A stretch of DNA of 64,000 bases from Serpentinicella alkaliphila (GTDB lineage: Bacteria > Bacillota > Clostridia > Peptostreptococcales > Natronincolaceae), in the NCBI RefSeq assembly GCF_018141405.1, contig NZ_CP058648.1:573001-637000 (forward strand). The letters run 5' to 3'. A model generated the notes under the pieces. That model made no database searches. It saw only the letters and a list, made by a program, of their open reading frames with translations, and was not told the DNA's origin. Shown here one piece after another: positions 33,580-39,880 of this stretch. The position numbers were made by a program, and so were the translations under genes. Within the stretch, counting starts at the first letter, position 1. Every line of letters starts with the position of its first letter.

Positions 33580-35502
33580 ATGATTGTACTTTCTTGTCAT
33601 TTACTTAGTAAATCCTATGGAATACAGGATATACTTAAAGATATAACCTTTAGTATTAACCACGGTGATAAAGTAGGTTTAATAGGTGCTAATGGTGCAG
33701 GTAAAACTACTTTATTTAAAATTCTTACTGGTGAACTTAAACCTGATAGTGGAAATATTTTTGTTTCTAAATCAACAGAAATAGGATATTTAAAACAAAA
33801 CCATACATTTGATATTTCAAATACTATTTACGAGGAAACGGAAAAAGTTTTTTCTGCTTTAATAGAAATGGAAAAAAATATAAAAAAATTAGAAAATGAA
33901 ATTGCTGATTTAGGTGTTCAGGATCCTAACTCCCGACTTTTGGAAGCAAAAATGGAAGAATACTCTACAATTTTAGAAACATTTAATAATTTAAACGGCT
34001 ATGGTTTTCGTAGTGAAGTCAGAGGTGTTCTCCGGGGCTTAGGCTTTACTGAGGAAAACTATTCCCAGCCTATTGGTCACCTAAGTGGTGGTCAGAAAAC
34101 TAGAGTAGCCTTAGCAAAACTATTGCTTTCTAAACCAGATATTCTTTTACTAGACGAGCCTACGAACCATTTAGATATTAGCTCTGTTGAATGGTTGGAA
34201 GGTTTCTTAAAAGATTATTCAGGCACAGTCTTAATAATTTCCCATGATAGATACTTTTTAAACCAAGTAATTAATAAAATAATGGAAATAGAAAACATGG
34301 GGCTACTGAGCTTTACCGGAAACTATTCACAATTTATGAAAAAGAAAGAACAGCTGTTAGAGCAAAGGGCCAGGGAGTTTGAGGCCCTGGAAAGTGAAAT
34401 TTTGAGACAAAAGGATATTATTAGAAAATTAAAGCAGCATGGAACAGAAAAACTAGTTAAAAGGGCCCAAAGCAGAGAAAAACAGCTTGAAAAACTAGAA
34501 AATAATATTCAAACTCCAATGTCACAAAAAAAAGCCGTTAATCTAAGTTTCTCATCAGTTAGTCAAAGTGGCAGAGATGTATTAAATGTTGATAATCTAT
34601 CCAAGTCCTTCGAAGGAAATAATTTATTTGATAATATTTCATTTTCTTTATATCGAGGAGAAAAAGTTGGATTAATTGGTCCAAATGGCATAGGTAAATC
34701 CACTTTATTTAAAATACTAACAAATGAGGTGAATAGTACCTCCGGGTCCATTTCCTTTGGACACCAGGTTACAACTTCCCTCTATGACCAAGAACTAAAT
34801 AATTTAAATCCAGAGAATACAGTTTTAGACGAAATTTGGGATGAATATAGAAAATTAGATCAAACTGAAATTCGTACTCTTCTCGGAGCATTTTTGTTCC
34901 CAGGAGATGATGTATTTAAACAAATCAAATCCTTAAGTGGTGGGGAGAAGGCCCGTTTATCACTTTTAAAATTAATACTTTCTAATTCTAACTTGCTACT
35001 ATTAGATGAGCCTACGAATCATCTAGATATTTCTTCAAAGGAAGTTTTAGAAAATGCCCTTATTGACTATGATGGCACTATATTTGTTATATCCCATGAT
35101 AGATACTTCCTGGACAGAGTTACAACAAAAATAATAGAGTTAACTCCAAATAACTGTGAAGAGTTTTTAGGAAACTATAGCTATTATATTGAGAAAAAAA
35201 GAGAACAGGAACTTTTAAACAACTCCACTTTATCCACAGAATCGAAAACAAAAACTCAAATAAAAGAGGACCGAAAAAAGGAAAAAGAAGAAAAAGCTAA
35301 AATACGACAGTTGCAGAAGAGAAAAGAAGATATTGAAGATGAAATTAGTAGACTAGAAACGGGATTAGAAGAGTTAAAATCTATTATGTGCGAAGAAGAG
35401 GTTTATTCAAATCCTGATAGAAGCAAAGAAGCCCACGAGAAATTTCAACAGTTACAGGAAAAAATAGATAATCTTTATGAGGAATGGCAGGAGTTAGAAT
35501 AG
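33580..35502 (+). CDS. ABC-F family ATPase (ribosome-associated)
   Basis: 640 residues with two ATP-binding domains and no membrane segment. Domain 1 has GANGAGKTT (about 37-45), LSGGQKTRVAL and LLLDEPTNHLDI. Domain 2 has GPNGIGKST, LSGGEKARLSL and LLLDEPTNHLDI. The linker near 240-320 is the helical P-site tRNA interaction region, and the last 90 residues form a charged coiled coil, as in YdiF/Uup relatives. ABC-F proteins act on stalled or antibiotic-bound ribosomes. AGGAGG lies 12 bp before the ATG. Whether it gives antibiotic resistance cannot be told. Confidence 0.93.
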   Translation: MIVLSCHLLSKSYGIQDILKDITFSINHGDKVGLIGANGAGKTTLFKILTGELKPDSGNIFVSKSTEIGYLKQNHTFDISNTIYEETEKVFSALIEMEKNIKKLENEIADLGVQDPNSRLLEAKMEEYSTILETFNNLNGYGFRSEVRGVLRGLGFTEENYSQPIGHLSGGQKTRVALAKLLLSKPDILLLDEPTNHLDISSVEWLEGFLKDYSGTVLIISHDRYFLNQVINKIMEIENMGLLSFTGNYSQFMKKKEQLLEQRAREFEALESEILRQKDIIRKLKQHGTEKLVKRAQSREKQLEKLENNIQTPMSQKKAVNLSFSSVSQSGRDVLNVDNLSKSFEGNNLFDNISFSLYRGEKVGLIGPNGIGKSTLFKILTNEVNSTSGSISFGHQVTTSLYDQELNNLNPENTVLDEIWDEYRKLDQTEIRTLLGAFLFPGDDVFKQIKSLSGGEKARLSLLKLILSNSNLLLLDEPTNHLDISSKEVLENALIDYDGTIFVISHDRYFLDRVTTKIIELTPNNCEEFLGNYSYYIEKKREQELLNNSTLSTESKTKTQIKEDRKKEKEEKAKIRQLQKRKEDIEDEISRLETGLEELKSIMCEEEVYSNPDRSKEAHEKFQQLQEKIDNLYEEWQELE

Positions 35503-35599: not shown

Positions 35600-35728
35600 T
35601 TATTCACACTAATCCACATCTTTTCCACAGTTTCCACAGTTTTATCCACAGATAGAATAGTGTATATAAGTTTAATAACATTTTTTCCCCATTATCCACA
35701 TTTTTGTTAACAAAAATACTGTGAATAA
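35600..35728. other. Array of DnaA boxes
   Basis: Perfect DnaA boxes (TTATNCACA): 35600-35608, 35642-35650 and 35692-35700 on the plus strand and 35720-35728 on the minus strand. Near matches are TAATCCACA (35610), TTTTCCACA (35621) and GTTTCCACA (35630). The first five begin 10, 11, 9 and 12 bp apart, one helical turn each, all in the same direction. An 18-bp perfect palindrome, ATTTTTGTTAACAAAAAT, lies at 35700-35717, touching one box. T-rich DNA precedes the array. No dnaA, dnaN or rnpA is near, so it is not the usual oriC context. Confidence 0.85.
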
Positions 35729-35812
35729 ATTTTATAAAATTGGGTATAAAAAATCCCATTCTATTATTGAACGGGAAAAATAAAATTGACATAAAACCAA
35801 AATAATATGTAG

Positions 35813-35983
35813 TTATAAAGACTTTTGTTCTAATGACTCCTTAAGTTGCTTAATTAAGGCTTCTTTTTCTTGATTATTAGTAATTAAGACATCAATCACT
35901 TCGTGCATTGAATCAATTAATTGTAGTAATGATAGCTTTTCCATGCTTCCATCAATCTTTCGCATCCATGCCAATTTTTCCAT
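35813..35983 (-). CDS. Small helical protein, unknown
   Basis: 56 residues from the ATG at 35983, chosen because GGGGGAA lies 7 bp upstream; an earlier ATG at 36016 lacks a good site. The sequence MEKLAWMRKIDGSMEKLSLL and the remainder are predicted to be helical with heptad-like leucines and a charged C-terminus (EKEALIKQLKESLEQKSL). I do not recognise a family. It lies next to the DnaA-box array and upstream of nothing in the same operon. Confidence 0.5.
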   Translation of the reverse strand: MEKLAWMRKIDGSMEKLSLLQLIDSMHEVIDVLITNNQEKEALIKQLKESLEQKSL

Positions 35984-36098
35984 AAAAAGTTCCCCCAATC
36001 CGATATTTTTATACATAGTAAATTATATATGAATAGTTAGGGGAATAATACAAGTAATGTTATCTATAACTTGTAATTTATGGTAATGTTACTTTTGA

Positions 36099-37130
36099 TC
36101 ATAATTTTAAATTAGGTATTGCGTTTAAATCTAATCCTGACCTTATACCTCTAATATACTCATAGTAAGCAACACAACCAATCATTGCTGCATTATCTGT
36201 ACATAAATTTAGAGACGGATATTTAACATCAATTTCATAGGGTTTACATTTATCAATTAAATTGGTTCTAAGCCCACTATTTGCCGCTACGCCACCTGCT
36301 AAAACCACTTGCTTAACTTTTTTATCAATTGCACATTGTACTGTTTTATGAACTAATACATCTATTACAGCCTGTTGAAAACTTGCGGCTACATCTTCTA
36401 CAATAATCGGCTCGTTTTTCATTTTTTGTGTATTAATATAGTTTAATACTGCTGATTTGAGGCCACTAAAGCTAAAGTCGAATGAGTTATCTTCTAAAAA
36501 GGCTCTAGGGAACTTTATTTTATCCTTATTCCCTTCCTTTGCTAGCTTATCTATTAAAGGTCCACCAGGATAGCCAAGTTCTAATGCCCTAGCAATTTTA
36601 TCAAAGGCCTCTCCTGCAGCATCATCTCTTGTTCTCCCTAATATTTCATAATCACCATAATCCTTCATATACACTAAATGAGAATGTCCACCGGATACTA
36701 TTAATGCAATAAATGGCGGTTCTAGCTCTGGATGTTCAATAAAATTCGCATAAATATGACCCTCGATATGATTAACTCCATTTAAAGGAATATCCTTTGC
36801 TAAGGCAATGGCCTTTCCTGCGGATAAACCAACTAAGAGAGCTCCAACCAATCCTGGACCATATGTTACTCCTACATGGGTTAAATCGTCAAAGGTAACT
36901 TCAGCCTCTTTTAGTGCAGTTTCAATAATTTGATTTATGAGTTCTATATGTTGTCTCGATGCAACTTCAGGTACAACACCACCAAATTTTTTATGCTGAT
37001 CTATTTGTGAATGGATTACATTGGAAAGTACCCTTCTTCCATTTTTAAGTACACTAACTGAAGTTTCGTCGCAACTAGTCTCTATAGCTAAGGTAATAAC
37101 TTCTTTTTTACATTTACTTAACTGTTCCAT
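36099..37130 (-). CDS. tsaD: tRNA N6-adenosine threonylcarbamoyltransferase TsaD
   Basis: 343 residues, the Kae1/TsaD family of ASKHA ATPases. [14 protein letters not shown] is the phosphate-binding start, NHIEGHIYA has the metal-binding histidines, and [12 protein letters not shown] and [13 protein letters not shown] complete the site. With TsaB and TsaE it transfers threonylcarbamoyl to A37 of ANN-decoding tRNAs. The partner genes tsaE and tsaB are about 7 kb away in this window, also on the minus strand. GGAGAGAG precedes the ATG. Confidence 0.97.
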
Positions 37131-38329: not shown

Positions 38330-39880
38330 AAACATAGGGGAAGTCATTATACATTTTCCTTTCTAGATTATTTTCTATATAATCTTTATAGGCGCTGTGG
38401 ATTAGTTTGTTCACCTACGGCAGCTGTCCCTATACAGCCGACTGTTTCTTTTGAGGCTATAACCACAGCTCTATGTTCATTTGTTAATTAGTTAGATAAC
38501 GCTTTGACGTTTTATATATAGCAAGGATACATTTAACATAGGGTTTGTAGAAACATAGCGTACTATATTTAAGGAGTTGATTACTATGTTATTTGTGGGC
38601 ATTGATGTTGCCAAAGCTAAACACGATTGCTGTATCTTAGACTCTGATGGTGTTATTCATACTAATTCTTTACGTATTTCTAATTCTAAGGAAGGTTTTG
38701 ATACCCTATATTCTTCTATCCTTTCTGCTCTTGGCCCAAGAGTATTAACAACGTAAAAATAGGACTTGAATCAACAGGTCATTACAAAGACAAATATCAC
38801 AAATTATCTGTATTCCAAAGGCTTTCAGGTCACCATCCTAAATCCATTGGCTACTAATCTTTTCCGTAAGGCTCAAACCCTTAGGAAAACTAAAACAGAT
38901 AAGACCGACGCTAAGGTCATTGCAACTATGCTCTTTACTGATGAATCTAAATCCTATTCACCAGTATCATATCAGATTCAGGAGCTAAAGTCACTAACAA
39001 GACACCGTCATAGAATGGTTAGTTACCGTTCTAGACTTAAACTTTCAGTTAGTCGCTTAATAGATATCATTTTTCCTGAATTGCCAAGCTTATTTTGGTC
39101 TATACACCAAAGTTCGGCTATGCATTATTAATTGAATTACCAACCCCCGATAGTATTTACAACTGCAATCTGACAAAGTTGACAAACCTAATAAGAACGA
39201 CCTCTAAAGGTAAATATAGCAAAGAGAAAGCAATTGCTTTAAAAGAGCTTGCTATCAAATCTATTGGGTCAAGCAATCGCTCTCTGACCTTCGAATTACA
39301 ACAAACTATTCGCCTCATACAATCTGTACAAACAGAAATAGATGCATTAGATAATCAAATTAAATTAGTCGTACAAGAACTCAATACCCCACTCATTACT
39401 ATTCCTGGCATTGGATATACTCTATTTGCCATTATATTAGCCGAAATTGGTCATATTGATCGTTTCTCCAACTTGACTAAACTTCTTGCATTTGCAGGTA
39501 TGGATCCTTCTACTTACCAATCTGGGACTTACAATGCATCTAAAACTCCAATGGTTAAGAGAGGCTCTACATACCTTAGGTGGGCTATTATGCAAGCATC
39601 TAGACTTGTTGCTATGCGCGATAAAGTCTTTAGTGATTATATGGTCAAAAAGCGTTCTGAAGGCAAACACTTCAATGTTGCCAGATGCCATGTCGGTAAA
39701 AAGTTAATTAGGGTAATTTACTACCTCCTAAAAAACAATACTGCATTTGTTCCACAAGTCTAATTTAATCTATTTTTTTCAGAGCAACTGAGTTGCTCTG
39801 TTTGTCATGCATTTTTTTGTAATAGATGTCTTTAAAATTATTTTCTTCATGACTTCTTTAAATACGAAATTTTTCTTGAC
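38330..39880 (+). mobile_element. IS110-family insertion sequence inside the ABC exporter operon
   Basis: The element lies in the gap between the ATPase start (38309) and the permease end (39914). Outer boundaries are approximate because IS110 elements lack inverted repeats and target duplications. The 38390-38585 stretch upstream of the transposase holds GCAGCTGTCCC, GGGACAGCTGC-like folding potential and no gene; in active IS110 elements this end encodes the target-choosing bridge RNA. A hairpin AGAGCAAC-TGA-GTTGCTCT (39781-39799) follows the transposase. Confidence 0.8.
38586..39763 (+). pseudogene. IS110-family transposase with frameshifts
   Basis: It starts MLFVGIDVAKAKHDC with AAGGAG upstream. 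Frame changes occur near 38745 (after ALGPR), near 38785 (after ESTGHY) and near 39105. Domain pieces are clear: the DEDD N-terminal domain has GIDVAK, ESTGHY and KTDKTDAKVIA. The C-terminal domain has LITIPGIGYTLFAIILAEIG, LLAFAGMDPSTYQSG and VKRGSTYLRWAIMQAS with the serine. Rebuilding gives about 390 residues. The element is dead in this sequence. Confidence 0.9.

Follow-up and report, generated by a model that had tools for sequence, protein, structure and literature searches.

The window analysed here, a 64,000-nucleotide stretch of the Serpentinicella alkaliphila genome, covers positions 573001-637000 of a single 3.26-Mb contig. Two of its genes, one encoding an ABC-F family ATPase and the other the tRNA-modification gene tsaD (gcp), are convergent, and the AT-rich gap between their 3′ ends holds an array of seven DnaA boxes at window positions 35600-35728 (Table 1). 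DnaA is the protein that starts chromosome replication. On the tsaD side of the gap, a terminator-like hairpin with a T tail would, judging from its sequence, stop transcription ahead of the array. The same side has a small open reading frame that can be aligned in all seven genomes of the family (S. alkaliphila and six relatives) and whose product gave no match in a Pfam search. Elsewhere in the window, transposase-like reading frames in two overlapping frames (38766-39763, plus strand) are flanked by ABC transporter genes on the opposite strand; judged by eye, they are probably a broken or frameshifted IS110-type element.

Table 1. Features in and around the gap between the ABC-F gene and tsaD, in window coordinates.
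Feature	Position	Strand	Description
ABC-F family ATPase gene	33580..35502	+	3′ end towards array
DnaA box 1	35600..35608	+	TTATTCACA, perfect to TTATNCACA; CACA core in 5/6 same-family relatives
DnaA box 2	35610..35618	+	TAATCCACA, 1 mismatch, step 10; TCCACA core in 7/7 family genomes
DnaA box 3	35621..35629	+	TTTTCCACA, 1 mismatch, step 11; opens 9/12 triplet
DnaA box 4	35630..35638	+	GTTTCCACA, 2 mismatches, step 9; TCCACA core in 7/7 family genomes
DnaA box 5	35642..35650	+	TTATCCACA, perfect, step 12; identical in 7/7 family genomes
DnaA box 6	35692..35700	+	TTATCCACA, perfect; 50 bp from box 5
Perfect 18-bp palindrome	35700..35717		ATTTTTGTTAACAAAAAT; shares one base with the box at 35692
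DnaA box 7	35720..35728	-	TTATTCACA, perfect, opposite direction; recognisable in most of 7 family genomes
Weaker sites	35661 and 35741	both -	one mismatch
Terminator-like hairpin with T tail	35754..35776	-	1 found vs 0.2 expected
Small ORF between tsaD and array	35813..36016	-	67 aa, or 57 aa from inner ATG
tsaD (gcp), tRNA-modification gene	36099..37130	-	3′ end towards array

The boxes were called as matches to the consensus TTATNCACA, and a call scores likeness to that consensus, not the affinity of this organism's DnaA. All seven sites lie where the sequence-only reading had placed them. Its wording, perfect or near-perfect, fits six of them (four perfect, two with one mismatch) and is generous for the box at 35630, which has two mismatches and retains only the TCCACA core. 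The same reading described the first five boxes as pointing in one direction about a helical turn apart, and the steps are indeed 10, 11, 9 and 12 bp. This five-box block aligns without gaps in S. alkaliphila and six genomes of the same family, six genera in all; the steps and the TCCACA cores of boxes 2-5 are constant across the seven genomes, and the bases between them vary. Box 6 has the same position in five of the seven and is displaced in the other two. The palindrome, correctly reported as perfect and in contact with one box, is absent from the six relatives in the alignment; given this lack of conservation, we rejected it as a part of the element, and it is probably incidental.

The background was estimated on 400 kb of this genome, sampled as 20 stretches of 20 kb each, which also served for GC skew. 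At one mismatch or fewer, sites occur at 1.2 per kb, and the densest 130-bp stretch of the sample has at most four; for seven sites in 129 bp, the Poisson probability is about 4e-10. Three same-strand CCACA cores 8-13 bp apart are found at this site alone in the 3.26-Mb genome, as two overlapping matches.

To assess conservation of the array, we collected tsaD loci from an even sampling of genomes across the class, order and phylum to which the window belongs, and defined a cluster as at least four boxes in 150 bp. Within the class, a cluster lies 3′ of tsaD in 32 of the 88 usable genomes (our own included) and 5′ of tsaD in none of the 88; with 30 shuffled motifs, 0.23% of the class loci reach the threshold. 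The distribution is bimodal, most genomes having either a full cluster or nothing. Since 56 of the 88 genomes lack it, several relatives from the same order among them, the cluster is dispensable in many lineages. The sequence-only reading had proposed a search for the array at the same locus in relatives, and the array was recovered from every one of the six same-family relatives sampled and from 22 of the 28 order loci first sampled (our own included). A further 20 order loci, picked among less similar tsaD matches, yielded four clusters. Where the ABC-F gene and tsaD abut without a gap, the cluster is absent. Among Bacilli, represented by the order that contains Metasolibacillus, a cluster 3′ of tsaD is present at 28 of 30 loci, mostly between convergent tsaD and ABC-F genes; an ABC-F gene 3′ of tsaD and pointing towards it was detected in 26 of the 30, and the 5′ side never holds more than two boxes in 150 bp.

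A stricter pattern gave a similar picture. The exact triplet, that is, the box pattern with 9- and 12-bp steps that starts at box 3, matches 19 times in the 148 genomes of the class draw, and the phylum draw adds 16 matches. Over both draws (about 390 genomes), 29 of the 35 matches are 3′ of tsaD and on the opposite strand; the reversed pattern, used as a control on these draws, has none. In a GTDB-wide scan, 19 of 80 named loci among the matches listed are within 330 bp 3′ of tsaD, 18 of these 19 with tsaD on the opposite strand. The tsaD-linked triplets among the matches listed include those of Sporomusa malonica, Phascolarctobacterium faecium, Thermosyntropha lipolytica and Ruminiclostridium hungatei. 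The GTDB-wide fraction also means that, among the matches listed, there are groups in which the triplet is not confined to the neighbourhood of tsaD.

The spacing of the boxes follows the helix well beyond the family. With one locus per family (24 groups), a choice by which kinship is only partly removed, the distances between boxes are best described by a period of 10.5 bp, for which the mean cosine is 0.60 vs 0.10 +/- 0.03 for random placement. In the 32 class loci, the spacers between groups of boxes are mostly 31-32, 42-44, 52-55 or 64 bp; that is, they differ by whole helical turns among lineages. The 50-bp spacer between boxes 5 and 6 of S. alkaliphila does not fit this rule: five full turns would need about 2.5 bp more. 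Strict phasing is maintained overall, which titration alone does not explain. Its maintenance suggests an ordered DnaA oligomer, possibly doing more than titration.

In S. alkaliphila, dnaA is at 949.7 kb, and the array is 341 kb away on a chromosome of 3258 kb, about a tenth of its length. In most genomes examined, the cluster is likewise near the origin. Among whole or nearly whole genomes in which tsaD and dnaA could both be placed, the median distance between these genes is 0.11 of the genome where the cluster is present (n = 21) vs 0.29 where it is not (n = 6), a difference with a Mann-Whitney p of 0.03 that is to be read with several genome sizes rounded and with genomes that are not independent. 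Two more genomes without a cluster (G530 and G531), additional to the six, also have tsaD distant from dnaA by our reading. There are exceptions in both directions: G042 keeps the cluster near the terminus (0.48), and G544 lacks it although its tsaD is near the origin (0.06).

The sequence-only reading had passed over the ABC-F gene and tsaD as mere non-oriC neighbours. They are exactly the pair that flanks a DnaA-box cluster of Bacillus subtilis, the one between gcp, which we take to be tsaD, and ydiF, which presumably encodes an ABC-F protein. This cluster is presumably among the six that Okumura et al. 2012 described. In the in vitro DnaA-binding data of Smith and Grossman 2015 (PMC4447404), the region, listed as "downstream of gcp; downstream of ydiF", comes fourth, with 10 sites, a Kd of 0.15 µM for the ATP form, a 16-fold preference for ATP-DnaA at 55 nM and a binding summit at 628 kb of 4.2 Mb. 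Deletion of all six clusters outside oriC leads to early initiation in B. subtilis, according to reviews (PMC5295017, PMC13220808).

The array of S. alkaliphila has the setting of the gcp-ydiF cluster: several boxes, gathered beyond chance in one intergenic region, with tsaD (gcp) and an ABC-F gene converging on them, at a distance from dnaA and on the origin side of the chromosome. The ABC-F proteins of the Bacilli loci are 39-49% identical to that of the window, and, going by identity and layout, the ABC-F gene beside the array is a candidate ydiF orthologue. From this group to Bacilli the element is continuous, if patchy and with many losses. The likeness is drawn from neighbours and published site counts, seven predicted boxes vs 10 reported sites, and the two hosts are different organisms separated by a deep divergence. 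Elements of this kind are already known, and it is the depth of conservation and the fixed phasing that appear to be unreported in the literature searched. That literature yielded no report of a tsaD-linked cluster outside B. subtilis, and earlier reports on conservation within Bacillus may have been missed.

We propose that the array is probably a cluster of the gcp-ydiF kind, passed on together with tsaD across much of Bacillota, at which cooperative binding of DnaA would restrain initiation. Among the options of the sequence-only reading, a DnaA-titrating cluster of Bacillus type is the one best supported, by the gcp-ydiF neighbours and by conservation in relatives, its function being assigned by analogy. 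From what is known of B. subtilis, we infer that the array binds DnaA, prefers the ATP form and affects initiation. DnaA, probably as ATP-DnaA, would form a cooperative assembly over boxes 1-5, which share one direction and follow one another at one-turn steps, and boxes 6 and 7 would anchor it further. Since 341 kb, roughly a tenth of the chromosome, separate the locus from dnaA, it would be copied soon after initiation; the duplicated locus would hold twice as much DnaA, leaving less free DnaA for oriC, and the next initiation would be delayed.

It is tempting to go further and to see the tsaD-linked cluster as an ancestral control element of Bacillota, in which a phased ATP-DnaA complex actively switches or inactivates DnaA instead of serving as a passive sink, a counterpart of datA or DARS where IHF and Hda are missing; we hold this to be doubtful. 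Like the array, E. coli datA and DARS are non-coding clusters of DnaA boxes outside oriC, and they tune initiation; unlike the array as known so far, they need IHF or Fis and work through the nucleotide state of DnaA, in the case of datA by hydrolysis of DnaA-bound ATP, according to a review (PMC5295017). That the array is an active complex in this sense, its phased ATP-DnaA oligomer promoting ATP hydrolysis or nucleotide exchange, would account for phasing that stays constant while spacer length and sequence vary, which is more than a sink needs, and would agree with the strong preference of the B. subtilis counterpart for ATP-DnaA (PMC4447404). However, the phasing could also follow from cooperative binding alone, and B. 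subtilis is without Hda and IHF, according to a review (PMC13220808); we regard such an active complex as unlikely.

It is quite improbable that a DnaA filament at the array controls or insulates the genes on either side, for instance as a roadblock to convergent transcription. The position between convergent genes would suit such a role, and DnaA does regulate transcription at certain sites in B. subtilis (PMC4447404). Against this, the array is 3′ of both genes, no convincing promoter is present, the terminator-like hairpin stands on the tsaD side, and clusters remain at loci with no detected ABC-F gene next to tsaD (L018, L022, L023 and L024). Promoter control of tsaD or the ABC-F gene was rejected on the first of these grounds and because promoter-like matches at the array are no more frequent than in shuffles.

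An origin of replication, secondary or cryptic, would also present clustered DnaA boxes and a T-rich flank, and the 9/12-bp triplet adjoins dnaA itself in L133, L135 and L160, among the matches listed. Nevertheless, over the 20 sampled stretches GC skew is negative on either side of the locus, turning positive at dnaA and switching back only between 2.34 and 2.58 Mb, with no switch at the array. The scan that detects a 27-nt DnaA-trio run in the dnaA-dnaN gap finds none in the array region. With neither a skew switch nor a DnaA-trio run, the array is very unlikely to be an origin, and the extra initiation site entertained by the sequence-only reading, which had asked whether the skew switches here, was rejected. 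That reading was right that the neighbours are not those of oriC, dnaA, dnaN and rpmH being absent from beside the array; moreover, clusters of this sort inhibit initiation in B. subtilis (PMC11019786). That the boxes came together by chance, as AT-rich intergenic DNA might allow, can be dismissed in view of their local density, the uniqueness of the pattern in the genome and its retention in six relatives.

Clusters of boxes also occur at other sites. Among the matches listed, the 9/12-bp triplet is found beside murC in ten Lachnospiraceae-type loci (L095, L103, L109, L115, L121, L122, L123, L126, L131 and L161), most of which carry, on the far flank of the triplet, genes encoding a DnaD-domain protein as well as a DnaC/DnaI-like helicase loader. 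The murC placement is a second recurrent site of the triplet, next to replication genes. Also among the matches listed, the triplet lies near rlmH (yydA) in three Bacilli (L112, L164 and L172) and near mnmE (trmE) in some Clostridia-type genomes (L075, L098, L110, L147 and L157). These two places correspond to the yydA and trmE-jag DnaA-binding regions of B. subtilis, the array itself being at another chromosomal site, and the recurrence of the triplet there means that several B. subtilis clusters may be old. The jag-mnmE gap of S. alkaliphila has one box only. Its genome does have four perfect TTATCCACA boxes after cwlD (C1:1325039-1325176; L006:4040-4177), which lie beyond dnaA as seen from the array, at a distance of 375 kb from that gene, and smaller clusters between dnaB and purA (C1:977876-978211; L008) and upstream of the hpf gene (C1:645033-645140; L007).

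Work on DnaA-box clusters outside oriC has so far dealt with B. subtilis, where they are viewed as redundant sinks. That one such cluster recurs next to tsaD in at least 24 family-level groups, its spacers changing by whole turns, points to selection across much of Bacillota and argues for the importance of the geometry of the DnaA complex. A question that can now be put to the test is whether replication in Gram-positive bacteria is generally held back by titration, or by an ordered DnaA complex.
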